Below are positions 6,001 through 45,401 of a DNA stretch of 64,000 bases, one piece after another. Position 1 is the first letter of the stretch. Every line of letters starts with the position of its first letter. The stretch covers positions 2,108,001-2,172,000 of the forward strand of contig NEEC01000011.1 in assembly GCA_002189035.1 (NCBI GenBank). The letters are read 5' to 3'. Made by a program: the position numbers and the translations under genes. The notes below the pieces were generated by a model, which had not been told where the DNA came from, did not search any database, and worked only from the letters and a program-made list of their open reading frames with translations. The stretch comes from Utricularia gibba. Lineage: Eukaryota > Streptophyta > Magnoliopsida > Lamiales > Lentibulariaceae.

Positions 6001-6487
6001 GCATTCGTACCAAATAACTCGTGTTTCAGATCCGCTGATATCTTTTCACACTTTCGAAGTGCATTTTTTACAACATCGTCGTGTCCTTCTCCCTTATCAT
6101 CGGACAAAAAATCCTCAAAGTCACTAACATCATCGCCGTTGTTGCCGCCGTCATCACTCTCTTCAGAATCTTGAATCACAACTCGATTTCGACGACGAGT
6201 CGTCGCAAACCTAATCCCCATTCCCGCTTCCCCATCATCATCGTCCAATTCCTCACACTTCTTCACCTCCTCAGCAGCCGCATCACCAATTTCGTCTCCA
6301 GATGAGCTTTCTATGACGATAGCCCCTGTGCTACCAAAACTTTTCCGGGTTCGGGAAAAAGAAAATGACTCAATTGGAGGAGGAGGGGTTTCAGCAGGGG
6401 CTTGATAACGCGAGAGGGTTTGAAGGAATCAGAGTAGGGCGCCCATTCGTCCTCTGATAGCTCGATAAATTCCCTCTCTCGCTTCAT
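3011..6487 (-). CDS. CHR19: SNF2-family chromatin remodeling ATPase, CHR19/ETL1 (SMARCAD1-like)
   Basis: A multi-exon gene on the minus strand, closest to Arabidopsis CHR19. The acidic N-terminal exon (to about 5938) precedes the Snf2 ATPase core. [13 protein letters not shown] (5590-5630) is the Walker A motif, [12 protein letters not shown] (about 5110-5140) the DEAH box, and LTGTPLQND (about 5025) motif III. The helicase C lobe includes [12 protein letters not shown] (about 3720), [15 protein letters not shown] and [11 protein letters not shown] (3270-3410). The last exon runs from LVTKDTVDE to the TGA at 3011-3013. The family ATPase slides or evicts nucleosomes. The predicted start at 6487 ([15 protein letters not shown]) is out of frame with the rest of exon 1: one base appears to be missing in the G run 6397-6400. 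The promoter carries a GGCCCA array. The identification is firm, but intron borders are approximate. Confidence 0.9.
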
Positions 6488-6717
6488 CGTTCACTCCGTT
6501 AGAGAATCAGAGAAGAGAAGGGAGGCTCGTAGAGAAAAGCTGTGAACTTGAGCTCCACCAAGTGTGGAGAGTGGGAGCGGGAGTCGGGGCCAGGCCGCCA
6601 TTTCTCACACCAACAAAGGAAAATTCACTTCGGGAAACTGCATTTTTGTCCCTATACTCATCAAAATTATGCATTTGGCTACGAGACACAGTCCTCCTTC
6701 AAAGTGGCCCCCGTCCA

Positions 6718-6972
6718 TGTCCTCTAACTAGTCCAGCTCATACCCTCTAATCGGCCCAACCCAAACCTATTGTCCAAGCCCTATAACCGGCCCAAACCAT
6801 ATCTAATAAGATCAGCCCAAAGAAGATAAGAGACTCAGCCCACATCCTGTAATGGGCCCAACCGATACCCACCTAACTGGCCCAAAATAAACTTTAAACC
6901 ATAAACCCTCTAATCGGCCCAACCCAAACCTTATTGACCCGCCCAGTCCTCTAACTCGCCCAAAAACCCCCC
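6718..6972. repeat. Degenerate tandem array of GGCCCA (site II-like) elements
   Basis: Units of about 25-60 bp with the pattern CCTCTAAYNGGCCCAA recur, with GGCCCA cores at about 6753, 6789, 6855, 6879 and 6917, and weaker GCCCA cores at about 6814, 6838 and 6959. The units at about 6741 and 6905 are nearly identical over some 30 bp. The array lies 230-490 bp upstream of the CHR19 start. TGGGCC/GGCCCA site II elements are known TCP-factor targets in promoters of growth-related and housekeeping genes. Confidence 0.6.
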
Positions 6973-9239
6973 ATCAAACCCCGTTTGCATGGCCCCTCCT
7001 GATGATGGTCCTACTAAATATCTCGGCACCGGGTGCGCGCGTATGGGGAATCCACGCCGTGGATTTTTTTTTTAAATTCTAATATTTTTAATGATTAATT
7101 TTAATAATTATTAATTAATTCATCAAAATTTTAATCAATTTATTTAATTTTCTCATATTTTTATATATCTTCATATAAAATATTCGATAATCACTTATTG
7201 ATTGTTATGATTATTTATCATTTAAAGTACCATAATCATTATTCATTCATTATCGTTTTAATTTTCGTTTCTTTTATTTTAATATTTTTTAAAAATAATT
7301 TAAATATTATAAATTGAAATTATCCCAATGCACCTATAATTTTTTAAATCACGAATCTACGTATCCGAATCCGTGAATTGATAAATCATTGCACCCGCAC
7401 CTATGTATCTTGCTTAAATATGCGACTTATGATTACATAGAAACAAAGGTACTATTTCGGGTTGATGAGTTCTTGCGTATGCATGGCTACTTGCCTTTTC
7501 TAAATTTACTTTGAATCATGCTTAGTGTTATGTCTGACCATTTTTTTATGTCCGTTGTTGATAGAAATCTGATCGAGAGTTGTGCATTATTTTCTTTTGC
7601 TGCACTAGTTTCTTCTACTGTGTTGATAAGGATGCTTCACGTTTGCCTCTTGATGCAATGCACCTCTTTATTTCGTTTTTAATCTTGTTCTTTCTGCATT
7701 ACACTTTTTTGCTCTTGGCTTGTTATGATTGGAATTCTCCCTTTCTTCCAGGCAAAAGAAGATAGTATTAGTTGTGTTCAACGTACATTCACGTTTGTTC
7801 TGCCATCATGCACATATCCAAGCACTCTTCCCTTAGAGTAGTATCATGTAGTTAAAGATCAGAGTGATGAAAATCAGACACCAAAAATGAGAAAATGATG
7901 AAAACTTTACACATGTATACATAATATTCTAAAAGATTTTTCGATCCCTTATCATTCAAGAGGTCCATTGAGAACACAATCAGCTGCTAACATGCAAGCA
8001 CTAGAGGTTTTCGGGATCTGATTTGCAACCCTCGTGCACACGTAGCCTTTTGGATTTTAGGGTCACTTTCAGAAGTCCAATACGATTTAACAAATTAGGA
8101 TGTGCACCACGCAAGATCCAACTCATCTTCAAGTTCATCAAAACTTATGTAGTGCCATTCAATATAAAGTAGTTGAAATGGATTTTGATTAGTAGTGGGA
8201 TTCCATTACCTATTCTCTAATGCCATATTTCTAACACATAGCATGGTCAATCTTCTTCCTCGCCCATGATGCATAACTTGTGGACTTGTGATGACTGATT
8301 GGGGATGCATCAACAACAACCATCCCCAGCCCGAAATCTGGTTAACAAGAGTAGGCAGGCTCTCTTTGCTTTATGTGTAAAGGGTGTGGTCCATTTACAA
8401 GAGAAGCATGAGATGTGCAAGGGCAATTACTTCTCTTGTTTTTTGCCATTAAACACTCCCTTCTTCCCCACCAAAATTGTGGTTGCCCTTAACAGAATGA
8501 TGTCATCCATTTTTGTGCTTTTGCCCTAACTCCAGGACTATGTCATTGCAGAAGTACCTTTTTCCACTCCATTGAATCCCAAACTTGAAAATGATACGAA
8601 CTGTGAGCCCCCATTAAACATCTCACCACAAAAGACAATACTTTTCCTTCGCTGTCTGCTAATATTATAGAAAAAAAGGGGTGGAAAGAAAAGCATTGAA
8701 TTACAGGTAGTTATTTTTGTAACTTTATGCTGGCTTTTTGGCATCTTCTCCTTTCCCTCTCTCTCTCCCTCTGTTTGTACATATTGCACATGCGCACTGT
8801 ACGGAAGAGTTGTGTGGTTTTTCCAGCGAAGACTGACGCACTTTTGCTTTCTGTTTCGCATTCATATCGATAATATTTTCATTTTGTGAGAACAAAATCC
8901 ATTGCTATATCGATGAATGAAGTGGAAAATAATGCTTTTAGTATTACTTGAGTGGGAGGTGGGGTTAGGGGATACGTCTGCGCCTGTGGACATCAAAGAC
9001 TAAGACTTCTCGTGGAACGGCCTGAGAAGAAGTAGCAGCGGCATCCTCCTTGTCTTCAGAATATCTGGTTCCTCCCACTGAGGATCGAAGTGGGGTGAAA
9101 CGAAAGGAATCTGATTGGAGATTAATCTCCTGCATATGCTGAATCCTTCAGTTCTGAAGGTGAAATCCATGTGATCAAATGAATGTTGATGTGAGTCTGC
9201 AAATCTAAGTGTTTTGGGGTTGTTTACAGGAAGCGAAGC
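6973..9239. other. Long intergenic region before the IDD gene
   Basis: No conserved coding frame was seen on either strand. The stretch 7060-7330 is strongly AT-rich. The remainder has ordinary composition with only short open frames and no recognisable protein. The last 200-300 bp before 9240 probably form the IDD 5' leader. No terminal repeats or transposase remnants were visible. Confidence 0.5.
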
Positions 9240-11394
9240 ATGGAATCTTCAACTTGTTCATCGACTTTTGACGCAGATCCCAGATCGAATAAGGTTCCAA
9301 TGTCGGCGCCTTCTTCAGTGAAGAGGAAAAGGAATCAGCCTGGAAACCCAAGCAAGTTTTTTTTTTTTTTTTTTGGTTTTTCGTTCAAAAACCCTGTTAG
9401 CAAAACGATGGAATCATCCGAAAGATTCTTGGATAAAGAAAATGGCTGCTCTCCCTCATTTGCATGGTTTCTAATCTCTGTCCTTTTATTTTCTTTGTTT
9501 CCATCGTTGCAGATCCAAATGCAGAGGTGATTGCTTTATCTCCGAAGACGCTAATGGCGACGAACCGCTTCGTCTGCGAAGTTTGCAACAAGGGTTTTCA
9601 GAGGGAGCAGAATCTGCAGCTTCACAGAAGAGGGCACAATCTTCCATGGAAGCTGAAACAGAAAGACGATGGCGGTTCAAAGGAGTTGATCAGAAAAAAA
9701 GTGTACTTATGCCCCGAACCGACGTGCGTGCATCACGATCCGACGCGTGCATTGGGAGACTTAACTGGGATCAAGAAGCATTACTCGAGAAAACATGGCG
9801 AGAAGAAGCACAGGTGCGAGAAGTGCTCCAAGAGGTATGCTGTGCACTCCGATTGGAAAGCTCACTCCAAGGCATGCGGGACTAGGGAATACAGATGCGA
9901 CTGCGGCACCCTTTTCTCCAGGTGATCCCCCATAAACACAACACACAGTAACGCACACTTAGGGTTTGCAGACTGATCTGCAGTAGGGTAGATGCCTGGA
10001 TTAGTGTTCTTGCATTAGGGTAGTTGCTCAAGCATGTCTGCATTCTTAAATCACCATGGTTTTGAAGTTTTCACGTGAAGTGTGTTGGGGAAAGTGTCAA
10101 GAAGAAAGAGGGTTTTGTTTGTTCTTCACAGGGACGTTGGTACAGGAACAAGTATACTTCGTCTTTGATTCCCTCAACTCGTGAAGGGAGGGGGTGGTAA
10201 GATGATCCAGCAGCAGATTTTGTTGGGTTGCGAATTGTCGACGCGTTTGCATGTGTTTCTCCCTAAGCCACTCGTAGTTGCAGTCCCAAGATTCGCTTTT
10301 TCTCCATCCCTGTCTGACATTGTTGTTATTTATCTGCTGAATATTGCTATGTATTCTGGTAGTGCTTCCTGTATGTGAATGGCGTTTTCTGGTTCTGCAG
10401 GCGAGACAGTTTCATTACTCACCGGGCCTTCTGCGACGCGTTAGCGGAGGAGAGTGCGAGGAACCTGAATCATGCTCATTTAGACGACGGGAACGGGGTT
10501 GACGGCGCAGGTGCTAGCCACCACCATCTTCATCTTCTGGGAGGCCTGATGACCGCCGGAATCCAAGATCAGAACCTCTCTTTCTCAAGCAACGGCTTCT
10601 TCCGATATGCCGGAGGAACTCACCTCGACAACCTGATCGGATCAGCGTCGTCTCGGGCGCCTCCATCTTTGCAAAAGCACAGTAATGAAGAAAGCTATCA
10701 ACCCTCGCTTCATTCTCTAATGCTGCTGCAGCAGCAGCAGCCTCCCCAGCTTCATGGCAATGGATCATCTTCCAGTCTTCTGAACCTCGGGTTCTTCCCC
10801 GGCGAGAGCGGCGGCGCCGGAGAGGATCCAAGCATCTTCACATACGGTGGGCAACTTTTACACTCTAATCCCATTCTCTGGATCTAAACAGGTCATCGTA
10901 ACATTACAGGTACTGGTAGCGGCAGCATGCACATCCCGAACCCTGCCTACATTTCGGCGGCATCGCTGCTACAGAGATCAGCAATGTACGGCTCCATCAC
11001 CACAGAAAATGGCGGTTCATCTTCGCAGCTGGAACTGGGAAGCACCGAAGAGCATCAAGACTTGAAGGCACTACTAGTCTTCGAAAGAAACAACAACAGT
11101 AGCGATGTGCAGGAGATGGCGAACTCAATCGCACACTCCTCGACTTCTGTGCTCGTCCCCGGTGTGTATCATCATCACCATCGTCATCAAGAGATGGATC
11201 AGTACGCAGCAGCAGGATTTCATCCGCATGGGATGGAGTTGGGGGAAGATGGAAAGCTGACTAGGGATTTCCTTGGCGTGGGACGACAATGGAAAAGGAG
11301 GAAGACAACTGAGGATCACCTGGAAAATCCCATCTCCCAAACTTCCCAAGGGGGAACATTCAATTCGACAGACAACCCAGAGCCTAACAGCTAG
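9240..11394 (+). CDS. INDETERMINATE DOMAIN C2H2 zinc-finger transcription factor (IDD4/IDD5-like)
   Basis: Exons 9240-9351, 9513-9921, 10401-10846 and 10910-11394 give 483 residues. KRKRNQPGNP marks the N-terminal basic segment. Next comes the ID domain: finger 1 (about residues 59-79, CEVCNKGFQREQNLQLH), finger 2 (CPEPTCVHHDPTRALGDL), finger 3 (CEKCSKRYAVHSDWKAH) and finger 4 (CDCGTLFSRRDSFITH). The C-terminal LTRDFLGVG is the conserved IDD motif. IDD proteins are nuclear DNA-binding factors that can partner DELLA and SCR/SHR proteins. Intron 1 is GC-AG: only the donor at 9352 (GCAAGT) keeps the frame, and the junction codon becomes Asn where the family usually has Asp. An alternative acceptor 18 bp upstream of exon 4 also stays in frame. 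Its position next to CHR19 favours the IDD4/IDD5 branch. Confidence 0.92.
9352..9512 (+). other. GC-AG intron in the IDD gene
   Basis: The donor is A|GCAAGT at 9351/9352 and the acceptor is TTGCAG ending at 9512. The nearby GT at 9355 would shift exon 2 out of the zinc-finger frame. The GC donor joins CCA A to AT CCA, giving the expected P-N-P-N-A-E-V start of the ID domain. Confidence 0.75.
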
Positions 11395-11623
11395 TACCTT
11401 AGCTTTTTGTTCTTGTTCTCAATTCGGAGGTGTCAGGAGAAAGAAGGGAGAACATGAATTTGTTTCCTGAATTTGATGGCTGTCAAACTAAGAGATGTTT
11501 GGATCATTTATATTTTGTCAAGATCAGAATAGAAGCAATGATCATTTCTCCAAGAAATATGAGAAAAGGTTTCTACAGATTCTGGATAACAAGAACACTA
11601 ACCAAGGATGAGATATAGATCAT

Positions 11624-14600
11624 TCATACATCAGGCAGCTTCATCAGCAGGTTGTCATACAGAATCCTGTCATCCCTTCCTGTGTTGCTCTCCAAGAGGG
11701 CACTTTGAACGAGCTCCTGATTCAGGAGGGGCGTCATTGAAGGAGTCAAGTGCACTGCAGTATTAACTAATGAAGAATGGATGTCGAAAAACGAACCTTG
11801 ACATCTCGGTGTGACAAGAATTTCCCCAAGTTGTGGAGGATCACCCTCAAATCTTCAACCTGGGGACAATGACACAAATGAGTTGAGAGATTGTGATCTG
11901 GCAAACATACACTCTCTTTCGGATAAACTGTATACACTCACCCGGATGTATCCAACACGATTTCTGTCAAAAAATCTGAAGGCCTGCAACAGTTCCTCAG
12001 AAGCCGCGTTCGTCCTTTTCACATCCAAATATGGCACGGAGTTCGTAGGTTCAACTTTATTGGTTATCTGAATACCAGCGGCTCCTGAACTTTGATGGGA
12101 AGTAGGCTGCAAATCGTTTGACACATTCTGAGCATCCTCACAAGCAGCATCATCAGAGGCATTTTCCTCGTCACAAATTGCCTGCAACAACCCCGTTAAC
12201 ATAATTAGCTATCTATATATGTGCATGACACTCTTAAAGGCACTCAGAACACTTATAACAGTTGTGGAACAACTTCCATCTTTTTGGGTATGAAAAGAAA
12301 CAACCACCAAGCGTGTGATTCAAGCTACTACCGATTCTCCCTCCTGAAATGAAACATCAAAAGTGCTACATATAGAGTTGAGTCCTGATTTGAACTTGCC
12401 TTGTTTATTTCACCTTCCACAAGATCAGCATCTTGCACTTCCTTCATTGGCTCTTCTTTGACTGGTTCTTCCTCCACTGGTTCCTCCTCCATTGGATCCT
12501 CCTCCACTGGCTCTTCTCCCTCTAGAACTTCCGCCACTGGCTCTTCTTCCTCTAGCACTTCCCCCACCGGCTCCTCTTCCTCTCGCTCTTCCTTAACGTG
12601 CGTCTCTGGCTCTTTGAGCTCCGGTTCTTCCTTAATGAGTCTGTTCTCTAAATTAGGTTCATCAACTTGATTAGCATCACCTTCATTCTTAATCATTGCA
12701 GTTTCATGCTGGGCAGCATCATCTATGACTGTTTCATTCTCATAAAGTTTATCAGAAATGCTTGACTCTGTCTTAATACGCTTCGCTGGTATATTCTGGT
12801 TGCTTTCTTTCTGTGAATTTTCCTCTCTCTGCCTCTTCTCCTGGTTTCTATTTGTTACAAACTTCACACGCAGTTTCTGTGAAAAACCATATCGGTGAAA
12901 GAGAGTGGCAAGGTGGAAAGTAGAAATGATGCTCCGAATAAATAGTTCAAGCCAACCTGAAGGAAAGTCAGTAGACGGCAGCCCATCTCAAACTGAAGCA
13001 TTTCGTAAAAGGATTCCGCAAATAATGAAACCTGAAAGTACGAGACCGTCAAATGCCATATTCATCAAAGAAACTCAACGAACGTCAGAAAACTACTAAA
13101 GAGCACTGCGAGCAAAGCTGGAAAAAAGGCAGGAGAGAACCTCAAAGGCTGACTCTTCTACATCATTGGCGTTGTGATCAAGCAATGAATCTAATGAGAG
13201 TGATAATGACTCAAGCTGCAGTAAAAAGCACAAATATATTGCTTCAACCTGACATTCAAACTTATACCATAAGAATAGGATACATCAGCAATCCTTAAAA
13301 CAAACCTTTGCATCCTTGCTGCACTTTGTCCGTAAAAAAATCCCCGGATGCTTAGGAGGTTCATCACTTTTCTTCTTTTCTTTTACTTTGGTTGCATTAC
13401 TTTTAGGTTCATTTTCAACGTTCTCTTTTGTTTCCTTTACTTCTTTCAGCACTTCTTTTTCCCTTGATTTCGGAGATAGATCACTTTGTGGTTCCTGTTC
13501 CTTGAAGTCATCAACAGCCTTAGCAGCCACCTGTTCATCTTCCTTCTCGCGGTCATTAGCAATCTGCCCTAAGTTTTTTTCAACATCTTCGGTGTGACCA
13601 CCCTCTCCCAGAACACTTTTTACCACCTGCGCTTGATCACCTCCACTTTCTTTAATATTATTATTTGTTGACACGGCCTTTTTCTTAGCAACCCTTTTAA
13701 CAACTTTCTTCTTCATGGTGATCTTGCTGCTACCTGCTGCGGCAGTTGGACTTACGTCCACAGGTTTGACCGATGCATTGCCTTCAACACTCATAGGTTC
13801 TTCCACAGGTGTTGCACCATCCTTCAAACATTCATCCTCCACCTGGGAGGATCAACCAACTTCTTTGAAGGCTTTTTCCTCAAAAAAGTTTTAATTGGCA
13901 AGGAATCCCTTGGAGAAACATCATTCTGTCCATCAAGTTCTGTACTGACACTCTTCCCTTCCACACTCTCTGGTTCATCATTTTGCTCAACCAGACATTG
14001 AGAAACTTCTTTCCTTTTAGCCACAATTTTCTTAACAATACGCCTAACTATTTTCTTCTTTCCCTGCTTGGACTCTACAGTCAACAGAGCTGAAGTTTTT
14101 TCTCCAACAACATTCTCTGGACATAGTTATCTGCGAGTTGAACTGCATCTGCATTTACAGCAGTGTCCTCTGCCTTCCCTTCAGAACTTAGATTTCCTTC
14201 ACCAACCACAGAAAATTTCTCCATTTTAGCATCACCTTGTGGCTGAACTGAAGGTTGACTCTTCAAATCCATCACTTCTGTGCTTCCACTCAAATGCTCT
14301 AGCTTATTATTATCTGAGACATGCAAATAGGTCAATACATATGTTAAGAGCATTACAACAGTCATGTAGCTTGTCACCTTTAAGATCTTCCTCCTCGATT
14401 CCAGTGATCTAGTTTGAAGAAAAACGTGGAAGTCAGAATATAAAGCTACAAAGCTGAGGAAACGTGGGATGCAAAAGAACCACAAAGGTAAGGACAAATT
14501 TAAGATGCACAAGGGCCATAACTTTTAATAAACAAGGATGAAAAATGACAAATAACAATTGGCGAGAAAAATACACAACTACACCCACACGTGCATGCAA

Positions 14601-17600
14601 GCAAAACAGGTTGTTTAAACCAGATAACAAAAGAAAAGCACCTTCAAGGCATGCACATGCTCCTGCTCTGAAGAAACCTTTTTGTAGTGAAGCCACTGCT
14701 CCCGCCATAAATCTAGAGAAGGAAGACATTCAGAGAGATCTGGAACGAAGAACACAGATACCTCCTTGTGACTGAAGAGCCCATCTTTTCCAATTCTGTC
14801 ATAATGAACCTGAAAATGAAAAAAAATATGAAAATGGGATGGTAGCTGAGCATTTGAAATGTAACCTCTACTCTTGTTCGACAAATAAAGTTTGATATAA
14901 GAAAACTAAAAGAAAGATATATATTTTTTGTTGGAAAAACTGTACAAAGATGTGAGAAAAATAACTGTGAAACCGTTCCACAATGAATCACGTTTGAAGC
15001 CAAGATTTATTTAACCAACACGAGTGCATCACTGTACGCAACATTAAACATTTATCAAAAAACTGGCATAACGTATCTATCACTTTTCCAACTTGCATAG
15101 TCAAGCGATCTCAAAAAATGGTAGCAGAAAAAATGAGAACCAAAACAATACCTCAAGAAACCTGTTCCAATGTCTACAGTTTCCCAAATCCAGATTAGCT
15201 ACATCCTTGGCATGCCTACAAAGAGGTTAGTTTAAACCAAAATACTAACAAATTATCACCAAAAAAATCCAGCGACAAAATAAACCTGATAGCAGTCCGA
15301 ACCAAAGATGAAGCATCCACCGAAGGATCACCACCATCAACAATGTCCCAGGGCCCCCAATTGCCATCAAGGAATTATTCTTTCTAAGAATAGCAAACCT
15401 TAGCATATTGCAGAAATGAGGAATTCGGTCATCAAAGGTTTTTTCACTTGATAGTTCTGAAAGAGCATTTTGGCTGAGCCCGCTAAGCAAAATGACCTGG
15501 AAGAGAAGGGAAGGTTGAAAACCTAGGACCCTCAAAATAATATAGAAAATTAAGGTTTTTTTCAATGGAAATATACAAAATTAAGATAACAAATTATTAT
15601 CTTGCGCAGAGTCTGATGCAAAATATAGGCAAATAAAAATACTGCAATTCATAACCATTAATCAGCAATAAGAAAAATCGATCAATTCGCAAACGTGCAA
15701 GGCAAAATTAATTGAAAAAAAGTATAGAATATAAATCCAGATAACACAAGCTTATGACTTGAAAGCGTGACATTACATCCTGAAAAGTGATACTTTGTAG
15801 TTTTTTAAACGCAGAATCTCAGAAATTTATAGCCAGATTACGATGCTCTTTTTCTTTTGCAACCAAAAAAAGCAGCATCTGAAGAAAAATCACAATCACT
15901 ATAAAAGAAAGACCTTAGCATTCCAAATGGTAGTTTGCTCCCTGTGCTTTGAAATGCTGGTTGAAAACTGAGCAGCATCCATCACCTTGGTGTCTACTTG
16001 TGCATCCCCGACGAATTCATGCTCAAAACTATCATGCATAAATGGTAGAAATTAGAGCAAAATATCTATGAAGGGACCCACATTTACCAATGAACTCAGG
16101 ACGCTAATAAGAAACTTCACACACTGATCTAGTCCACATTCTTCAGACTGTAATATACCAGAAAGTGAACCTTAACCACTAACATATAAATCAAGAGTTG
16201 CAAGTATGGTACCCCGTGAAACATAGAAAAAAAAAGAGAAACAGAGCAATATAAGAGAATAGATCTAACAGGCATACTAAATAGAAAAGGAGATAATACC
16301 TGACAGGGGTGTACAAAGAGAGCTTTCTCTCATTTCTTGGCCAGCATACAGCTACCTATTGTATTTGGTAATCTTTATTCAGTGTAAACTTGATGAAATA
16401 GCAAAATGCACACAGATTAAAATGACACCTTTGTGCACTCTGGAGATATGTAGAGGCGAGGATATCGCTTGTCCAAGGATAGATAATCCCTCTCAGCTTC
16501 GACAAAACTGAATGAGAAAACCTGCACATACAGAAAGATATATTACATGGTGCCTCCAAAATATGCTGATTTAAATCTTTCCCTAACCCCCACCCTTCAA
16601 AAGACAGATACATGGCATTAAAATAATTTATCAAAATACAATGCTCCATTTGCCACATAAAAGTGCTGCCCATGAATTCTGTCACTGTCAGCTTCATGCG
16701 GATTGTGTCAAGACAAGCGCTGAAATATCATATAATGATCCATAACATGATGAGGAGAGCGTGTGTCCAAATGAGAGCTCAAAGCGGGGGAACAAAGGGA
16801 AAACGAGTAAAAGGGATGAGTAAATTGGCAATGACAGAAGGCTGTCTGTAGCAGAATGAAGGCTCAAACGTGTACTGAAAGAGAGATATAAATGAGAATA
16901 GGGTAACAAGGAAGTGGACTAAAGATGGGAGAATCAAATCGAGATTATTTTACCTTGCATTCATATTCTCTCCTCTTTCCTTTAACAGGAGGACGAACCC
17001 TTCAGCAGTGCAAAATACGGTTAGAAAGGGTACAGGTTAGATAGCGTTTGACAAGCAGAACCAGAATAGGATGTAACTAATAGGATCCACCTATGCAGCA
17101 CTTCATGGCGAGGTGAATCTCCACGCAAAGGTCTGACATCTTTAACCAAAGAGGAACCTCGTCTCTCCCGTGAAACACGAGGGGGAGTTCGTTCAAGCTT
17201 CAATGGTAATCCCCGTTTTGGCTCACGGACCCTCTCCTTCTCCTTGCGCTCCCGTTCCCTTGCACGCTCTTTTTCACGCTCCCTCTCACGTTCTCTAGCA
17301 CGCTCTCGTTCTCGCTCCCTTTCACGTTCACGTTCTCGTTCACGCTCCCTTTCACGTTCACGCTCTCGTTCCCGCTCCCGCTCCCGCTCTTGCTCTCGTT
17401 CCCGCTCCCGTTCTCGTAAACGGTCCTTTTCTCTATCTCGATATTTTTCTCTTTCAGAAATGGTATCCCTATCCTTTCCTCTTCGATCCAGCTCCCAACC
17501 GTATGCTGATCTGTCATCTTTGCGACTAGCAGGTCCCAACACAGACGTTGGAAATTCTGGTTCACGCAATGCTCCATGAAGACCCTTCCCAGCCCCATAA

Positions 17601-19000
17601 TCTCTACCAGGGGGCAAGCTCACTCCATACCCAGGGTTGGAAGCACTTTGAGGGTAAATAAGGTTATCGACATTTCTCTGTGGAGCTGCACCCAAGATTG
17701 AGGAGGTATGTTGCAAGCTATATGATGGAGCACTTAACAATGCCATGCTATGAGATTCATGGTCACCCCTTCCACCATAAGCAATAGGATCTTGGGCAGG
17801 ATGACGAACAGAAGCCCTTGTTGCAAGATAATCAGCTTGTCTGCCATAAATTCGTTGCTATTTAGCCACTGTGAATTACCATCGAATGAAGCTGCATCTA
17901 GATTTTCTGGGTGCAAATCCACCACTAAACTTATAATATCCTTATATTATATCCTCAAGAAAATGTGACAAACACCACAGGAAACGAGAGTTGGAACATG
18001 TTGCGGCTGCTGCTGTTGTTTTATATTTGGAATTCTACCACAAATAGAATCAAACATAAACTATAAATACTGTTAAGGAAAACTCACCTAGCTCTGCCTT
18101 CAACGGAGGCTGACTGAAGAGCACGAGATTTCATCATTTCTTCTTGCCGAAGCACAGAGGAATTTTCTAAATGATCATACAGCTTAGACTGAAAAAACAA
18201 TGAAGCTTGAACAATTAGACGGATGAATCCATAATTAGGAAATGAAAAGCACATAGAAAATATCATCATTTAGTACCTGATTTTGCCTCCCGAAAGCAAT
18301 CGACTCTGAATATCTGCTAGTGGTTTCATTTGGTAAATCTCGCCCAAAAAATGCACCTTGGCGATCAGCATGTGGATGTCTGTCAACAGTTGGATATTCA
18401 GACATCCTCTCAGGGTAAAGCTGATCAACTTTAGGAGCATATGCACGACTTGAAGCTGAAGCATAATCATTTGCAGCAAATGAAGATGGCATTTGCATTG
18501 ACGACCCATAATTACTACGGCCGTCTAGTCCACTAGTTGCAGATGCCTTGGTACCTCTAGGCGAAACCTGTAAAAGTTAAAACCAACAAAAAACGAGGAC
18601 AAAGGTTGAAAAGGGTAATCTTACAGACCCGTTAATATACTACAAATTTCAATAAAAAACAGAAATCAACCTGCTGTGCAGCAGAGCCATACGCGGAACC
18701 ATACTGCCCTCCATAACGTTGGGGAGGAGGGGCCATAAGCGAAGGCATGTTAGCAGAATGACGCCCATGTACATGCGGCCTGTATCCTTGCGGTTCTGGC
18801 TCTGCATCAGGATGATTCGCTCCATGGAGGCCTGCGGCTCCAAACTAGAAGAAAAGCAACCCAAAATTTGTAATAAAAAATTTGCATCACCTTGAAGCGT
18901 CAACATAAGAAAATGAACTCACACTCTGTGGCGTGTATGGATTTTGCGCAGAGTAGGGTTTCTGTTGGCCGTATCCACTGCCTCCGCGCGAGGAATACAT
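11624..19000 (-). CDS. CCAR1-like protein (EMB1579/RSA1 type)
   Basis: A long multi-exon gene starting MYSSRGGSGYGQQ at 19000 and ending at TGA 11624-11626. The order matches plant CCAR1 homologs (Arabidopsis At2g03150): a Gly/Ser/Tyr-rich N terminus; ILGAAPQRNVDNLIY and NPGYGVSLPPGRDYG (about 17590-17700); a long Arg-Glu dipeptide tract (17244-17460); KGKRREYECK with DYLSLDKRYPRLY (S1-like region, 16440-17000); a DBC1-like region (LMAIGGPWDIVDGGDP, 15290-15480); Lys/Glu-rich tails with EEPVEEEP repeats (12400-12640); and a degenerate EF-hand ending in FFDRNRVGYIR (about 11945-12000). The Arabidopsis homolog is nuclear and linked to transcription and salt response. One base is missing in the C5 run 15354-15358, which breaks the DBC1-like frame. 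It lies tail to tail with IDD. Confidence 0.88.
17244..17460 (-). repeat. Low-complexity Arg-Glu repeat inside the CCAR1-like gene
   Basis: About 200 bp of nearly pure CGN-GAR dipeptide codons give a long RERERE tract, followed by RE/K-rich sequence. Such tracts in nuclear proteins form charged helices. The opposite strand reads as a serine/arginine ORF, which is only a shadow. Confidence 0.8.
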
Positions 19001-23621: not shown

Positions 23622-23648
23622 ATTTTTGCATTAAGCTTTTACATTTTT

Positions 23649-31510: not shown

Positions 31511-32938
<1,428 letters not shown>

Positions 32939-33770: not shown

Positions 33771-34350
33771 ATGGATTCCTTCTCCTCCTCATCTTCCAAT
33801 GCGTCCGGTTCGAGAGTTTCGCAGGAGGATCTCATGGATCAACTTAAGACTCAGCTTGCTCAAGCTTATGCAGAAGAATTTCTTGAGGTACTCTTCATTT
33901 CTTGATTTTGGCTTCTGAATTTTGATCTAGGGCATTTTCTGAAATTTTCTGGGTCTGGTGGTTCCTGGATACAGCTCTGGATTCTTTTCTGGTCGTAGCT
34001 TTGTAGGTGAATGGCATGAATTCTGGATTTTCTAATGCGTTTAGTGTTACTCCGAACCATTCACAGATTTCTAGGGCACACTTTGCAGAGTACTTTTCAA
34101 TTGTGTGTACAAGTGATACTTAAATCTGCTTATCCCAGAAAGAGTCATTCTTTTTTCTGTGGCGTAAAATCTAACACGATTCTTGACAATGTGTTTGATC
34201 CAGACGGTCCGGGGTAAGTGCTTTGACAAGTGCATCACAAAGCCCGGCAGCAGCCTGGGCGGAAGTGAGGGCAGTTGCGTCTCCAGGTGCGTGGAGCGCT
34301 ACATCGAAGCTACTGGTATAGTTGGCCGGGCTCTCTTTACCCAAAGGTGA
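33771..34350 (+). CDS. TIM13: Mitochondrial small translocase chaperone Tim13
   Basis: Two exons (33771-33887 and 34204-34350) encode 87 residues. The protein has the twin CX3C motif of the small Tim family: Cys45-x3-Cys49 and Cys64-x3-Cys68, separated by a Gly/Ser-rich loop. The flanking helices contain QEDLMDQLKTQLAQAYAEEF and ERYIEATGIVGRALF. With Tim8, Tim13 forms a hexamer in the mitochondrial intermembrane space that escorts hydrophobic proteins to the inner membrane. The Ser-rich N terminus is usual for plant Tim13, and the length is normal for the family. The intron is phase 0 with GT-AG borders. Confidence 0.95.
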
Positions 34351-35902
34351 GAGCTGGCCACCACATTCTTCCTGTGCTGTTTGTTTCTCAGTGTTGAGTC
34401 GTGGAACCGTTTCAGAATGCTCACCCATTGAAACTCAGTCATTGATTCAAAACTTCCATACCCCATGTTTTCCTGTTGAAGTTAGAAACAGGCACGACTA
34501 TATACTGCAATCTTTTGAAATCAAGCCTATGCTAACATGCTTCTTGAAGGAATAACTCGATGTTAACTGCGCACGAGGCGGTTTGGACAAAGAACTTTGT
34601 GATATAGGCGTGACATCCACACCGCCCTGAACTGATAGTTCAATGTAATTCAACAAGAGTGGTTTTGAACATTGGCAGAATGTTGAGATATAGAATCTCT
34701 GATCACAGTCCCAATCCAGTGAAGATTGGATAAAAAGGATTAATGAACTCGAATGGAAAGGGTAGGTACCTCCCCTGGGCATTTCATCGAACACATGGAA
34801 GACAGTGATGCAAGGTCTCCAACATCAATGGCGAAGAATGCCGGTCGTCTCACTAGCCTTGTTTGCTTGGACCATCCACCTTCGAGTTCTGTCTCCCCTG
34901 CAGCCTGGGCTAGTGGTGGGCCCAGTTAGTTAATCCGGTTCCAAAATTGCAACGGTTTCAGTTATTTAGAATGAATTATGGCTTATTTGGAATAATGTTT
35001 AATTTGAGGAAAACATTTCATGATTAATTTTTTATTTTATTTTAAAGAAAATTCAAACATATTTTCTATATAGTAAAATAGTTTCTATTTTATAATAAAT
35101 AAATACTTTATATAATTCCCATCTATTATTCAAATAAGTTACATATAGTCTTTATTTTATACTCAACACCTTGTATTTATTCTATATTTTTTATTACATC
35201 TTTTTTATTATTTCAACTTGGCACTTATCATTTCAGTTCAAATGTGCTATCAAAATTCCACCTTAATAATCAATGTTTTAAAAACAGGTTCAACCCATTG
35301 TCCGAATTATTTTTAGTTCTGAGTTAAACCCTTATTCGAGTTAAATTCATTATAAATAAACATATAAAAATAAAAATAACTATACAAATTCATTATTTCT
35401 AAATTTTAGAAATTTTTTATATTGAATTTGATGGAACCCTCACATCAAGCCACGATTTTACAACCCTGATTTTGATTTGTGTAGCTCAAACTTCGTGACT
35501 TGTAATGAAATCTGAACCGTACACAGTACTTACTTGTCATCATCCGTCCTGGTTCTTACAACACCTGAAATGTGTGCAAGAGGAGGGGATGCAATAAATG
35601 GTGTATAACGAGTCCGTTGGAGCATTCATGAAATCCACCGTAATCTCCATTAAACCCAGTGGCTTCCTGTCCCGTGGCTTCACCGGAGAGTTGATGGGGG
35701 ATTCAATGCGTCGCCATGCCCGGAGAGAAGCCGAGTAAATGTGAATCCTCTCTTCTTCCTCCAGAGCTGATGGGAATTTAAAGGTAACGAGTCTTCTAAT
35801 AAATACGCTAAGTATAACTCTATAACTACTGCTGCCCTGTCCTTCCTTCTCTTCTTATCAAGATCATCATACCTCTTCCATCCCCATCTCTACTTGCCAA
35901 AC
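34351..35902. other. Intergenic region between TIM13 and the TSO1-like gene
   Basis: 34351-34920 has ordinary composition without a recognised gene. 34970-35450 is AT-rich. 35560-35902 is probably the promoter and leader of the TSO1-like gene; it contains TCCGTTGGA at 35613-35621, close to a reversed MSA (AACGG) mitotic element. That match is weak. Confidence 0.4.
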
Positions 35903-38398
35903 ATGGCTTCCTCCTCAACTTTGGAAGCTTTGGGTTCCCCGCAGAGGATCAGCAATGGAGTGGGCGCCGTCGACGTTGAGGTTCGATTCTGTGAAAGAAT
36001 ATGTTGGTTTTGTTATGCTTGGCATGGGGTTTTTTAGTTGGTTCTGAACATGTTTGTGTCTGTGCATGGGATTGCAGGATTCCCCTGTCTTCAGTTTTCT
36101 GAATAACCTGTCGCCTATCAAGCCCATAAGATCAACGCACATTCATCATCATCAGACGATAAACCTTCTGAGCTTCGCTTCTCTCCCCTCTGTTTTCAAT
36201 TCGCCGCATGTTGGTAATTCATTGAGGGACTCTAGATGCATCCCGAGGTACGTTGGATCGGGGTGCTTTTTTTTGCTGGTCTGGGTAGATCTTTATTCTG
36301 TAAACTGAACTGCTTCCTTTGAACTCAGGCAACCGTCATCGAGAACTGACATTTCTTCACCTGATGAGGGCGGTGGAGAAAAGGAAAATGTGGATCCTAG
36401 GGCCGCGTTGGAGGCCCTTTTTGCAGTCTCGAAGCACGAAATTAACAATTCGCAGTGTAATAATTTTTCCCAGAAGTCCCCATCCATCATTCCAGATGTA
36501 GAAGAAGGGTATGAAATCAGCAAAGGAGGCGCATTGGGTGACGCCCAAAGCTCTATTTTCGATGGGCAGTCTCTGGTTTTAACTCCTGAAGCACAAAGTG
36601 AAGTTTTAGCTTGCAAGAAGCGGTTAGCTGAGTTCCAGGATGTAAATCCTTGTTCTTCGGCTGCTGACCCTGATCCTTTTGCTACAATGGAGAATGAGGT
36701 GATTACTTCTATATATATACCATACTTTCCTTTTGACTTTCGATGCCTCAGTTTAAGGTTTCAGTTTCTCATATCTGTAACTTGTTGCAGCAGCTTTCAG
36801 TTTTTTACGGTGGTATGAGAAGATGCCTTGTTTTTGAGCCCACAGTTTCCCATCTCGAGGACACAAGGGATTCTGGTTTTGACTCTTCTATGTTCCCACA
36901 ACCACTTGGGAATTCTAACCACCAACTACCAGTAAAGAGACAGAGCCATTCTCCCCTACTACACCAGTTATTACCCGCCATTGGTTTGCATTTAAATGCT
37001 CTTGCTGCTTCAGCAAGTGAAAGATTGAGGATTGGAAATGACTCCTCCAGCACCTCTTCCTTCGTATCCCCGAATCCAGAGTTGATGCACAATACATATG
37101 ACTACAGCTGTTTTGGAAGAGAATTTGCCACATTTGACCCCCCTCTTAGAGACCCTTTTGAAGAATTGGGCATAATGATTGGAGGTTTTGCTCAGACCAG
37201 CAGTCCAAAGGCGAAGAGGTATAGAAACTTGCAAGTGAATTCTGTTCTTGCAAATGCAGTTCAGTTTGTTTATAGCTTAACTCATGTTTCAGGATGAAGA
37301 TTGAAAATCCTGGAGGTGCTGAATCTTGTAAAAGGTGTAACTGCAAAAAATCCAAATGTTTGAAACTGTATGTGCTGAGCTTTCCCTTCTTCTGTTCATA
37401 CTTTCACTGGAACTTGTAAGTTTTAAGCCATTAAATCATATCTGCAGTTACTGTGATTGTTTTGCTGCTGGTGTATATTGTACGGAGCCATGTGCATGTG
37501 TGAATTGCTTCAATACGCCTGCCCACAAGGATATCGTTCGTGCAACCCGTGAACAGATTGAAAGTAGAAATCCATTTGCTTTTGCTCCCAAAGTGATAAG
37601 GAGCAGTGCCTCTCAGTTAGATGCAATGGTTTGTTCTTCAGCTCATTAGTTGGTTGACTGATATTCATGTATCTGTATCTCATCTCAGTCATTTTGCAGG
37701 ATGATCTTGGGAAAACTCCAGCTTCTGCTCGACATAAAAGAGGATGCAACTGCAAAAGATCTGGTTGCCTTAAGAAATACTGTGAATGCTACCAGGTTCC
37801 CTTCCTCTCTCCTTTGTGTTTCCATGTAATCTATGTCAATGGCTGCTGGAAGCTGATGGAGAAAGCGTTTCTGCAACTTCAGAGTGGTGTGGGCTGCTCC
37901 AGCAATTGCAGATGCGAAGGTTGTCGAAACGCATTCGGCATGAAGGATGATGGAAAGTGGTGCACAGTGAAGGAATCAGAGGATGGAAATGGAATGGACA
38001 TGACAGACAAGGAGCTACTGAGCTCCAGTTCATTTACAAGTAGTGTAACTGCATTACATGGAGACCATGTTTTCAGTACAGCAAGGTATTATCATGTTTA
38101 CACACACTCCCCTGTTTCATTGACTATCCATGCTCAAGATAGTTCCTTGTGCACTTTCAGACCTCCCGGATCTTCGTTTTTTCCAGCCATCGGCGGTTCG
38201 TCTTCCGAATGGCATTCCCCAGCAGACAAAAGTTTCCTGCTCCCTCCTTTCTTCCAAGAAGGATTGCCTCTGGGGGAAACAACAAAGACATCCTCCCCTA
38301 ATGGTAAGCGAGTATCACCTCCTGAAATGAAGAGCAGCGGCAGGAGGCTGAAGCTTGAATCCATATGTTCATTTCCCCCTCTATTTGTTGATCAATGA
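35903..38398 (+). CDS. TSO1-like CXC-domain protein (CPP/tesmin family, TCX2/TCX3 type)
   Basis: Nine exons (35903-35980, 36078-36247, 36329-36698, 36791-37218, 37293-37367, 37448-37628, 37700-37795, 37883-38085 and 38161-38398) join to 612 residues. The N-terminal [19 protein letters not shown] is the family signature. CXC repeat 1 (about 361-394: [19 protein letters not shown] and the ACVNC end) is followed by the conserved RNPFAF linker. CXC repeat 2 (about 450-487: [16 protein letters not shown] and [11 protein letters not shown]) completes the DNA-binding unit, which binds zinc and CHR-like TTTGAA DNA. The animal homolog LIN54 and plant TCX proteins act in DREAM-type complexes controlling division genes. 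Introns 37796-37882 and 38086-38160 are multiples of three without stops, so retention would keep the frame. Confidence 0.92.
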
Positions 38399-38821
38399 GA
38401 TTTTGTTACCACTCCAAATAATAAAGTTTCTGGGAGCAAATCACCAAATGGTGTGTGTTTTCTTTTAGTAGAAGACACTCTCTGTAAACTGTCTGAACAA
38501 GTAGAGAGAAGGAAATCAATCACATACCAGTTACCCAATATGGGCTTAGAGCCTGCAAGAAAAATATGTATTTGGGGTCTGTAGCGAAACGAGCACAGCG
38601 CACTTTGTAAGATCCAACTCGAAGATATGGGCCAGAAATCGTAAAGCCACAGGAGCTTGAAGCTTTTACATCAAGAAATCCCACTTTTCTAAGATTTCCA
38701 CAGCGCATATCAACAAGTCTCCGCTTTTGGAGCTCCTTTGATGCGTAGCTTCTTTGAGTTTGTAAGCCACAGGTAAACTGAGGGTGCGCTGCGCGACCTC
38801 TGATTGTGTCGTGCATGGACT

Positions 38822-41508
38822 CTACATTACCTTGTCATGATCATCATCAGAAATCCCAACGACAGACTTAAGGGTTGACGCCCATGCTTTAAGGCCCCTT
38901 TCACCTTCCATCATCTCAAGCTTTTCAATGGCAAACTTGGGAACCCCCGTTTTGTGAGGATTGAGGCAAGTGACTTGAAAGTACAGCCATTAGGTTGAAT
39001 ACTGGATTCCAGCATCTCTTGAAAGGTCACAACTGCCTCCTTATATCTTCCATCAAGCAAATACAGCCTTAGGACCTGATTGTAACTCAACAGCTCCTTG
39101 AGTCCTCGTTCTCGCATCTTTCTCGCAATCTCATGCGCATCCGTAAAGTTTCTGTTCCTCGTGTACATGCACAGCATCATTGCGTACGTAAACTCATTGG
39201 CCTCTCTGTTCTGTATCAAATCATTAAAAATCTCTTCTGCTTCAGCCAACATTGACTGTCTGCTGTACATATCAACCATACAATTTGAAGTGTAGACATC
39301 CAGTCCGGTTCCCAGTTTATGAAGCATCTTGTACGCCTCCTGGGCTTCTCTCAAGTAACCTGCTTTGGTATAAAGTTTGATCAGTGTTTTGCATATAACA
39401 CCATTCACTGCTAAACCCCGGCTTCTCATTAAACTGACAAAGTATGATGTTTCTCTTACACTGCCTGCCTCAGCAAAGGCACTTATCAACACCCCAAAAA
39501 CTATAACATCCGGTTCGATTCCGTAACCTATCATCTCTTCGTATAATCCAACAGCTATATCCTTATGGCCCAACTTGACATAGCTCGAGATCACAGCACA
39601 ATATGGAATGCAGCTATTTAATAACTGAGCCTCCTGCATTTTCCTAAGATAGAGGATAGCTTTCTGCGGCAGGTTTGCTGATGACAGGATCTGTATGATA
39701 GAATTATAGCTACATGTATCTGGAACTAACCCATACTGTTCCATTGTATCGAAAAAATAACATGCCTGATCATATTTCACACTGACACCACATGCTTTTA
39801 TCATCACATTAAGCTCAAGAACAGTTGGCTTTCTTACCTGTAAGCTGCAATCGAAAACTTTTTGAGCTTCTGAAAAGTAACCTTGCTCACCGTAAGCATC
39901 CATGATAGCAGAATAGCACGTGCGTGTCATGTTCCCCATGAGGTGGAACTTCAAGAACCATAACCAAGACTGCTGTATCATTCCAGCTTCTACATACATT
40001 CTCATCACAGAAGATTGAGTGAATTCATCAATCTTCAATCCTCTATCATCCATCTCTGAAATCAGCTCCTCCGCTTCAGCAACCATGTGCCTTAATGAAA
40101 ATGCATACAGTAACGTGCGATAACTTACAGGATCAGGTTCCAAAGAAGCTTCCTTCATCTTTGCCAAGTACCTCACTGCCAGCTCAATATCATTGTGTTT
40201 AGCATGCACAAAAATGAGAATGTTGTATGTTCTAGTGTCAGGAGAGCATTTAAACTCTTTCATTCGTTGCAGAAGCGATGCGACTTTTTCTAACTTACCA
40301 TGAATCCCATGCACATGCATCATCGTATTAAAAGTTACTGTTGTAGGCTGTATGCCTTTTTGGAGCATTCCTTCAAAAGTTTCGCACGCTTCTTGTAACT
40401 TGCCAGCTTTCCCATATGTATCTATCAAAGTATTGTATGTATGAGCACTCAAGCCATCGTCACGATTGCTTCCTCTTTTGAATTGCAATACTACATTTTT
40501 GTGATCCTCCTTTGAGTTGCGGTGCGACCATTTATTGTAGAACTCTTCAGCAGAAACGAAATCCCCTGTCTTCTTATACATTTGAACTACAGTTCCCATG
40601 GTCACTTCATCTGGCTCTATCTCATGCTCATTCATCAAGTCCAGCCACTTCTTGGCCTTGTCTGTATGTCCTCCCTTGCAACACACATCAATCAGTGTAC
40701 CATAAGTTGAGTTTATCGGCTTGATACCTCTTTTCTGCATTTCTCCCCATAATCTATCAACCTCATGCCACTGTTGCGCCATACCCAGAATCCTGAACAC
40801 TATGTTGTAGTGAATGACATTAACCTCGTAGCATCCTTTACTCCGAAACCAGTTGAAAATATCCAACGCCCGTTCCCACCTCTGCTGCTCCCTCAATAGT
40901 ATGCTCCTTTCCTTATTAGTCAAGGTCCTTTCCCATGGTCTTAGGGCTTCGTTCAGGTCATCTATGGTGCTCAGAGATTCCAGCATTGCAGGTATGGATC
41001 CACAGTAACTCTTCCCTTTCTTTGCAATGAAAAAATCTGACTTTTCATGTCCCCTAGTTCCAGGATATTTCTTCTTAGCACGATCCTGTTTGCCACTATG
41101 TGTAACTCGCTTCAACCTTTTGACATCACCAGTAGAGTTTTCCCTACTCTCGTTCAACGAACCACGCGTGCGCAAATCCTCTCCACTACCAGTTGCATAA
41201 TCAAAAATCAGCTCGAAGCTCCTGTTCTTACTGATGCCTCGTTCCGAGATGCTACTAGTTGTACATTCCTCTTCGGGAATTTGATTTTTGGAATATAATC
41301 CACCAACATCACCATAAAACTTGCCACTTACCTCAATCCCACAGCGGCTTTCCCCCAACGGAGACGAATGGGTGCCGAAGGTATTCTCGATACTCCGTAA
41401 ATGCCGCCTTTGTTTGGTTGTACTGAATTTCGTAAGGGATGGACAGAATGCACGAGTAGAACATTTTTCTGATGGTACAGTGATGATCAGTTTCAAGTGA
41501 AAATCCAT
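38822..41508 (-). CDS. P-class pentatricopeptide repeat protein (At1g73710-like), apparent 1-bp frameshift near C terminus
   Basis: Intronless, with the ATG at 41508 (MDFHLKLIITV) chosen over an upstream GTG. After a basic, Ser-rich presequence, LSTIDDLNEALRPWERTL and LRWEQQRWERALDIFNWF-like sequence begin a run of 35-residue P-type repeats. Clear examples are HYNIVFRILGMAQQWHEVD, STYGTLIDVCCKGGHTDKA, HTYNTLIDTYGKAGKLQEA and RTYNILIFVHAKHNDIE. P-class PPRs bind organelle RNAs in a sequence-specific way and affect stability, splicing or translation; the target is unknown. The long frame stops at 38911, but the -1 frame then continues VPKFAIEKLEMMEGERG and WASTLKSVVGISDDD to TAG 38822-38824, matching the usual family tail. 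One G appears lost in the run 38944-38948. It is head to head with the DYW-PPR gene. Confidence 0.87.
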
Positions 41509-42660
41509 CCCGGTCTGGATATGGGTGCTACCTCTCTCGCGCTGCAAAACCAGCACCACGTTCGCAATCGAGATTTCTAGAAAATAAAAAGAAAATGGAA
41601 GTTACCTAAAATATCAAGGATACAAATATCTTGTGGGCTGGTAAAAGAGTAAGCCCATCTGCTGCCTGGTCTGGAAACTGCATTATGCAGGCCGAGCTCC
41701 GTGACCGGCCTCGCTACCGATGGATCCAGTGCGCTTGGAATCCTGTGTGAGGTGGATGGTTTCTCTTGCTGAACCTGCCGGCACCGCCGCTTCTGTATCC
41801 TGGTACGACGGACGGAGGATCGGCTGTGAAATCGTTCCATTTCGGGGTTCAAATTTTACTCCTTCCGAGATCTGTGAAAGGCTTATATGGTATAAACGTG
41901 GCCGTTGACAGAGCCGTACCTGGAAAAATGGAAAAAAAGGGCAGACCGGAGAGAGATAAAGGCATCAGAACAGCCGGCTAGCGATATAATTTCAAGTCAT
42001 TAAGGTAGCATGGCTTTTTTCTCGTTTGCGTTGTGTTTTGTTCTTCCCGTCGTAGCTATTCAATGCTTAGATTGTGTTGTACTCCGATTTAGAGTCATTC
42101 CTCTCTGCATGCTCAGACAATGTTAATCCCAATTTATAGTCTTATCGCTGATCTAGACTTTTTCGAATATACAACAGGTGCATGCTGCATGAGTTTGGAA
42201 AAATCAATCCTCCGGTTTCAAGAATATTTTCAGAAGTCGAAGCTGTTCCACTGGGATTTTCGTTTGAAATAGAAGAAAACACTAAAACGACGTCAAGGGA
42301 CTAAGAGATTACCTTGAAGAGGAGGCCACTGAGTTATTTTGGTCGTGAGGAGTCAAACTGGATTACATTGAGAAACACAAAATACTAAAGCCTTTGTGTC
42401 ATGTTAATCTGAGAAAGAAATTTGTGAAACTTCTCCGGTGTACCCTCATGGGAACTTGGACAAACGCCTGAGATAAGATGCCTTGCTGGTTCCATGACTT
42501 TTTGTGGATTAGGAAGTTCAAAAAATTCAGTCCTTGAAGTAGATGGGACTTCAGGGACAACATGGTACTACTGCTAAAACAGGTAAACCAGGTGTTGAGT
42601 TGTTCAAAAAAAAAAAAAAAAAACAAATGTCGTTGAAGTAGATGAGACTTCTGGGACATC
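41509..42660. promoter_or_regulatory. Divergent region between two PPR genes, with a start-codon-spanning duplication
   Basis: No conserved protein was recognised. Near the 3' end, 42534-42602 is a diverged copy of 42633-42702 (period 99 bp), with a pure A18 tract (42606-42623) between them. Copy 1 contains an ATG at 42571 that opens a short upstream ORF resembling the true N terminus. Confidence 0.55.
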
Positions 42661-42702
42661 ATGGTACCACTCCTAAAGCAGGTAGGCCAAGTGTTGAGCT
42701 GT
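42534..42702 (+). repeat. Imperfect tandem duplication spanning the DYW-PPR start codon
   Basis: About 70-bp copies (42534-42602 and 42633-42702) differ at roughly ten positions. Each contains an ATG followed by V-x-L-L-K-Q-V-x-Q-V-L-S-C. A homopolymer of 18 A's lies between them. Confidence 0.8.
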
Positions 42703-45401
42703 AGGCTTTCTGGTGAGAAGAAGTTGTATGCTGAAATACTGAATGTCTTGTTAGACAAGGGTGGTGTTATGCCTGATTCAGATGTAGTTCGTACATTAAA
42801 AGCATTTGCTGATTATAAAGTGTCACTTTGCTATACACAGCTGATACATTCTAAGTTCATCCTTTGTGGTTTCAGTAAAAGGATTTCTTTCTGTAATTTT
42901 CTGATTGATTTGTATCTGAAGAATGAATATATAAATTCAGCATATCAAATATTTAGGAAAATGTGCCAGAAGGATTCATCAACTTGGGTTGCCATGATCT
43001 CAGGCTTGTCCCAAAGAAGCCATGAACTAGAGTCTATCCATGTTTATTGTGAGATGCGAACATTAGGTGCGTTCCCAACTCCTTATGTGTTTTCAAGTGT
43101 AATAAGTGCGTGCACCAAAATTAACATGTATGAGCTCGGAGAGCAGTTTCATGCTGTGATCTTGAGATGGGGATTTTCAGCAGAGATCTATGTGTGCAAT
43201 TCACTATTATCACTTTATACAAGGTCTGGTAAGCTGAAACTAGCAGAACAAATTTTCACTGAAATGGCTGATAGAGATAATGCTACATACAACACTTTGA
43301 TATCAGGTTTCGCCATGCAAGGATCATTTAATAAATCTTTCCAGATATTTGAGGAAATGCAAATCAAGTCATTGAAGCCTGACGGTGTCACCATTGCAAC
43401 ACTCTTAGGCTCTTGTGCATCGATGGCTCTTCTGAGTAAGGGCATACAGCTACATTCTTATGTCATAAGGGCAGGAATGTATTCGGATATTATAATTGAA
43501 GGTTCTCTCCTAGATCTTTATGTAAAATGCCAAGATGTTGAAACAGCCCATAAACTATTTCTGGAAATAAACACTCATAATGTTGTACTTTGGAATGTGA
43601 TGCTAGTGGCGTATGGACAAATGGGAGATCTCCAGGAGTCATTCCATATTTATTCTCAGATGCAGATTCATGGTCTGTGGCCCAATCAGTATACATTTCC
43701 TAGTATTATAAGAACTTGTACTACTGTAGGGATGCTTTTTCAAGGAGAGCAGTTTCATGCTCAAGTTACTAAAGCTGGATTTGAGCCTAACGTGTATGTA
43801 TCTAGTGTGCTTATAGATATGTATGCTAAACTTGGAGATTTAGAAACTGCCCTGAGGATCTTTAGGTTTTACGATGAAGATGATATTGTGTCATGGACAG
43901 CTATGATTGCAGGATATGCCATGGCTGAGATGTTTATTGAAGCCCTTACACTTTTTGCTGAATTGCAAGGCAGAAGGATTCACTTAGACAATATTGTATT
44001 GGCTAGTGCTATAAGTGCATGCTCGGGATTCAAGCTCTAAACCAAGGGTGTCAAATACATGCCCAAGCTATTGTCTATGGTTACTCTTCTGATACATCTA
44101 TCGGAAATGCACTTGTATGTCTCTATGCTAGGTGTGCTCTAGTATTGGAGGCACGTTTTGCATTTGAGAGAATCTCTGAAAAAGATAATGTTTCATGGAA
44201 TGGATTGATATCAGGTTTTTCTCAGAGTGGAAGGTCAGAGGAAGCATTAAACGTTTTCTCTCAAATGATTCAAGCTGGAGAAGAGGCCAATACTTTTACT
44301 TATGGCTCTTCCATCAGCGCAGCTGCAAACATGATCAACTTGAAACTTGGTAAGGAAATCCATGCAAGAACACTAAAAGCTGGGTATGACAATGAGATTG
44401 AAGTGTGCAATTCTCTTATCACGTTCTATGCAAAGTGCGGATGGATTGATGATTCTTGGAGGATATTTACTGGTATGGCTTGGAAAAACGAGGTTTCATG
44501 GAATGCAATGATTACAGGGTTTTCTCAACATGGTTATGGCGAGAGAGCCATTGAACTCTTCGAGGATATGAAAGCATTGCAGATGGCTCCAAATCACATA
44601 ACTTATGTCGGAATACTGGCTGCTTGTAGCCATGTAGGGCTGGTGGAGAAGGGTTTGTGTTACTTCAGATCCATGAGCGACCACCACGGCATAGAACCGA
44701 CACAAGAACATTATGCTTGTGTAGTCGACATTCTTGGAAGAGCTGGTCAACTTTTTCGTGCGAGATCATTTCTGGAGTCTATGCCCATTGAACCTGGATC
44801 AATGGCCTGGAGAGCTCTCTTAAGTGCCTGTGCAGTGCACAAGAACATAGAAGTTGGCCAACTTGCTGCAAAGCATCTGTTAGAGTTGGAACCCAAGGAT
44901 TCAGCCACATATGTTCTTATGTCAAACATGTATGCAGTAACCGGTAGACAGTCCAACCGGGATGAAGCTAGACAACTGATGAGAAACAGAGGCGTGAAGA
45001 AAGAACCAGGCCAGAGTTGGATCGAAGTAAAGAACTCAGTTCATGCATTCTTTGCTGGGGACAAACTGCATCCTATTGCAGACAAGATCTACGAGCACCT
45101 AGCTGATCTGGATATGCAAGTGGCAGCACTTGGCTATGTGAAGGATGTCAACTATGACTTCCAACAGGAGAAAGGCCCCATCTCTCATGTTCATAGTGAG
45201 AAGCTGGCAATTGCTTTTGGACTTCTAAGTTTGTCTAACATGATTCCTTTGCATGTTATCAAGAATCTCCGTGTCTGTAACAACTGCCATGAATGGATAA
45301 AATTCGTAACCAGGATCATCGATCGACGCATTGTGGTACGTGATGCTTACCGCTTTCACCATTTTCACAATGGACAGTGTTCATGTAAAGATTATTGGTG
45401 A
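42661..45401 (+). CDS. PLS-class DYW pentatricopeptide repeat protein (At4g13650-like), apparent 1-bp frameshift
   Basis: A single-exon gene of about 913 codons once one frame change is allowed. Alternating P, L and S repeats run from about residue 50, for example CNFLIDLYLKNEYINSAYQ, CNSLLSLYTRSGKLKLAEQ and WNVMLVAYGQMGDLQESF. They are followed by E/E+ motifs (YACVVDILGRAGQL, GQSWIEVKNSVHAF) and a DYW domain. The deaminase-type residues HSEKLAIAFG and CNNCHEWIK are present and the protein ends SCKDYW. DYW proteins edit C to U in mitochondrial or plastid RNA. The frame breaks at GGG 44025-44027: the first frame stops at 44040, while the next continues IQALNQGCQIHAQ without loss. As written, the protein would lose its C-terminal half. 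Confidence 0.9.

Follow-up and report, generated by a model that had tools for sequence, protein, structure and literature searches.

The seven breaks of reading frame that occur in conserved genes of a 64,000-nucleotide stretch of Utricularia gibba DNA (hereafter the window) are, with a probability of about 0.96, assembly errors in which runs of G or C are one letter short, and not lesions of the plant. An artefact of this type is a known kind of sequencing and assembly error. An earlier note on this DNA had preferred shrinkage of homopolymers in the consensus of long reads to a biological cause, and the present analysis supports that preference through the direction of the breaks (43 one base short versus 2 of opposite sign) and through their enrichment at G/C runs without a corresponding enrichment at A/T runs. 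Moreover, the risk of a break rises with run length, a locus that was assembled twice displays one-sided losses, and the broken gene for chloroplast glyceraldehyde-3-phosphate dehydrogenase A (GAPA) is under selection, all of which further support long-read consensus error.

Materials and Methods

The window comprises positions 2108001-2172000 of contig C255 (3,424,836 bases) of assembly G000, which contains 100,091,633 bases in 516 contigs, among them contig C451 of 6,822,880 bases. The sizes of contigs C1, C2, C505, and C409 (8,500,000; 6,192,500; 3,452,500; and 2,492,500 bases, respectively) are all divisible by 2,500, a pattern suggestive of trimming or of cutting at a fixed size.

For the genome-wide sample, 30 PPR-DYW and 30 GRAS loci, representing approximately 101 kb of coding sequence, were each compared with intact paralogs using a frameshift-tolerant aligner. 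The PPR-DYW candidates L021 and L023 contained introns and were dropped. A further 22 joins were read from the tables of the GRAS, DYW, Exo70, BAHD, and UDPGT families, one of which, L070 (+1), is an intron and was rejected; the joins in P450 genes are mostly introns and were left out. Locus L057 had been a candidate for a single +1 event, and its conserved GRAS motif displayed two one-base losses instead. Run context was assessed by the longest G/C run within the interval in which a break was placed, with equally long random intervals in the same genes serving as the null.

Results

The earlier note had listed five genes in the window, each broken by one missing base in a G or C run. Direct reading of each site and translation on both sides recovered all five at the positions given, and at each of them the frame that follows the G/C run is the one-base-short frame, with no residue lost, in agreement with the loss of one base per site. 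The count of five was too low, as seven breaks are present when two more in the CCAR1-like gene are included. The accompanying estimate that about a quarter of the genes is affected is roughly right, given that at least 14 genes were counted by eye in the window on the basis of partial annotation. The breaks, and the GAPA coding region, are the following:

6397..6400, minus strand: CHR19-like gene; four consecutive C on the coding strand, with one base missing; the frame changes after MKRE...VIKP
13845..13847, minus strand: CCAR1-like gene, extra break; CCC, one base short; ...KKLVDPP continues directly in QVEDECLKDG...
14115..14120 (about), minus strand: CCAR1-like gene, extra break; one G missing next to a single G; ...LADNYVQ continues in ENVVGEKTSALL...
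15351..15358, minus strand: CCAR1-like gene, break in the DBC1 domain; GGGGGCCC, one base short
31846..32938, plus strand: coding region of the mature GAPA protein; two exons; matches in PDB
31925..31927, plus strand: GAPA break; CCC, one base short
38944..38948, minus strand: P-class PPR gene; GGGGG near the C-terminus, one base short
44025..44027, plus strand: PPR-DYW gene; GGG, one base short

On the strength of sequence comparison, GAPA is the cleanest of the five sites initially listed, its break being proved by alignment to the sequence of a solved structure: the 27 amino acids encoded by positions 31846-31926 align with residues 1-27 of Arabidopsis GAPA (3k2b), and the 62 amino acids encoded by positions 31926-32111 in the other frame align with residues 28-89. 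In the PPR-DYW gene, PPR repeats precede the GGG run and Pfam identifies PPR, E, E+, and DYW domains downstream of it. The DBC1 profile of Pfam continues across GGGGGCCC in the CCAR1-like gene, with profile positions 2-23 matched before the run (weakly, E 0.12) and 26-47 after it (E 0.0019), each half on its own falling under the Pfam cut-off. The exon of the same gene at approximately 14.3-13.3 kb (window 13285-14330, minus strand) is translated in three frames in turn, and the two joins that this involves were absent from the earlier list. The P-class PPR gene encodes 885 amino acids of PPR repeats in one frame and a 40-residue tail, VPKFAIEKLEMMEGERGLKAWASTLKSVVGISDDDHDKVM*, in the other; this tail is without a Pfam match, and the site is supported by frame continuity. 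By homology, CHR19 is the weakest of the five sites, as no domain spans the run at 6397-6400 and frame continuity is its sole support.

Genome-wide, the 60 sampled PPR-DYW and GRAS loci contained 15 frameshifts after prior removal of two introns, and all 15 are one base short, corresponding to a loss of about 1 per 6,800 coding bases. Five of these were found in 51 kb of PPR-DYW sequence and ten in 50 kb of GRAS sequence, which is richer in GC. Among the 21 further joins that remained, 19 are one base short and two are of opposite sign: L087, which lies at a run of eight C, and L069, which is located less than 1.5 kb from a contig end and contains an in-frame stop. Together with two GAPA paralogs and the seven window sites, this amounts to 43 one-base-short events out of 45. 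Genes of the Exo70, BAHD, and UDPGT families (L071-L087) were observed to be split in the same manner, some of them twice, and the gene models of the assembly are probably split widely.

A G/C run of at least three bases was present at 28 of 36 breaks, as compared to 11.6 expected (standard deviation 2.6, maximum 20 in 5000 random draws); manual placement of a few intervals (L057 and the GAPA paralogs) slightly biases this comparison toward run enrichment. Runs of A or T were found at 10 breaks versus 13.4 expected, i.e., without enrichment. A run of three or more was not clear for L009, L022, L052, and one of the events in L060. Within the 101 kb of coding sequence, breaks were recorded in 2 of 7112 G/C runs of two bases, 3 of 338 runs of four, 3 of 64 runs of five, 2 of 11 runs of six, and the single run of seven; these counts cover 11 of the 15 events, whose run lengths were assigned manually. 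Hence, the events are one-sided losses of single bases that lie at homopolymers and are commoner in the longer ones. Several GRAS paralogs break within one GC-rich motif, GGPPxFRLTG, at different runs inside it, which is the behaviour of a context-dependent error.

The assembly contains four GAPA copies: the copy in the window, L064, L065, and L066. Each of the first three lacks one base, and the G/C run affected differs among them; none of the three paralogs of the window copy is shifted at the homologue of the window site, the breaks in L064 and L065 being located elsewhere. The fourth copy (L066, G000:C375:2197700-2199400) has no break, but its motif is TTIRSYAG instead of the TTTHSYTG of the others, so that the catalytic histidine is replaced; judging from this change, L066 is perhaps a truly degenerate or repurposed duplicate of the window gene. 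All three copies that retain the histidine thus carry a one-base-short break, and it is not credible that a photosynthetic plant would be left without any functional GAPA. The window copy differs from its paralogs by dN values of 0.014 to 0.036, with dS at 0.82 or saturated, which indicates strong purifying selection and agrees with the earlier statement that the breaks are not accompanied by decay. Neither the relaxed selection nor the further decay that would mark a pseudogene was found for GAPA.

Part of contig C412 is duplicated by the 38,022-base contig C316 (loci L062 and L063). Comparison of the two over 10 kb reveals 8 substitutions and 13 indels, all 13 being losses in C316 and none in C412, a comparison in which the error rate of the small contig C316 is possibly above that of large contigs. 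One of these indels reduces GGGG to GGG in C316 and disrupts a GRAS reading frame that is uninterrupted on C412; a second copy that reads differently was therefore found at this locus, not at the five sites of the earlier list. The one-sidedness of the losses argues against true haplotypes, as these would display losses on both sides. Some of the differences, i.e., the multi-base changes and the substitutions, may be real haplotype differences. Identical match scores were noted for C376/C413 and for C199/C414, which may likewise be redundant.

For DCL3 of U. gibba, a truncation has been published; the possibility that it is a single-base artefact was considered and rejected. At the DCL3-like locus L089 (G000:C213:2754200-2762300), which contains an RNase III pair at C213:2761967-2762970, no recognisable helicase was detected by eye in approximately 7 kb upstream; the helicase therefore looks truly absent, which agrees with the RNA-seq and 5' RACE data of the authors who described the truncation. 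The region at C255:2643-2652 kb, also considered as DCL3, is DCL1-like instead.

Discussion

Small deletions might really have inactivated many genes in the recent past, for example where whole-genome duplication relaxed selection in a genome that is shrinking. Such a wave of loss would be in keeping with the reduced genome and duplicated genes of U. gibba, with the seemingly true degeneration of GAPA copy L066, in which the catalytic histidine is replaced, and with the DCL3-like locus that is without recognisable helicase sequence in the examined upstream stretch. However, insertions, stops, and changes in A/T runs are expected from such a process, whereas 43 of the 45 events lack a single base and no excess was seen at A/T runs; moreover, the broken genes are without decay (GAPA dN 0.014), and every catalytic GAPA copy of a photosynthetic plant would have been killed, which renders this explanation very improbable. 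Even less credence is given to the possibility that the shorter runs are real and reflect a mutational bias of the lineage, which would have removed single G or C bases from runs in thousands of genes and be tolerated by virtue of duplicates or slippage. A mixture, in which assembly errors account for most sites and true lesions for one or two of the seven, draws on the CHR19 and P-class PPR sites, for which frame continuity is the only support, and on the one GAPA paralog that seems really degenerate; nevertheless, these two sites match the rest in run context and direction, and a mixture is considered unlikely.

The proteins could in principle also be restored by programmed -1 ribosomal frameshifting or transcript slippage, and the CCAR1-like site does contain an in-frame heptamer, G GGC CCT. 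This is, however, the only one of the five sites with a slippery heptamer in the zero frame, as none was found at the other four. In addition, the site is not conserved, given that the GAPA paralogs are unshifted at the position of the window break, and one and the same locus is both open and broken within the assembly (C412/C316). Recoding is consequently regarded as extremely improbable, and consensus error is retained as the explanation of the window breaks.

According to this explanation, raw long reads would drop bases in runs of G or C, after which the consensus step would fix the run at one base too short, so that reads carrying the longer runs should exist at the sites. In a U. gibba consensus that is presumably PacBio-only and Quiver-polished without short-read correction, about 1 in 6,800 coding bases would be missing in this way, making conserved genes look frameshifted. 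The published U. gibba PacBio assembly was obtained with HGAP and Quiver at 88x, and its contig N50 is 3.4 Mb (PMC5793159); its Unitig_8 measures 6.8 Mb, and a review gives 581 contigs (PMC8333044). Quiver has been described as prone to frameshifts at G runs (PMC4853030), and many indel-broken genes are reported for an assembly based on PacBio RSII only (Watson and Warr, as cited in PMC12007338).

At a rate of about one base missing in every 6.8 kb of coding DNA, the genes that look broken or split could number several thousand. Claims that genes have been lost or truncated, or that additional gene models exist, should be checked against short reads or transcripts when they derive from the U. 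gibba assembly, and the rates per run length provide a simple rule for the lesions to distrust. The practical weight of the artefact lies with the users of this genome.

Genuine plant pseudogenes share with the present cases a broken reading frame, and differ by their mixture of insertions, deletions, and stops and by relaxed selection, none of which was seen at these sites. The conserved-gene frameshifts resemble the interrupted coding sequences of Mycobacterium smegmatis, a significant proportion of which are sequencing errors according to that report (PMC1852416), although that case concerns a bacterial genome and older technology. The closest resemblance is to PacBio-only assemblies polished with Quiver, with which the U. 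gibba sequence shares single losses in G/C runs, frameshifted conserved genes without surrounding decay, and errors that increase with run length (PMC4853030, PMC12007338). In contrast to the nine-G run discussed in PMC4853030, most of the breaks described here are located in shorter runs of 4-6 bases.
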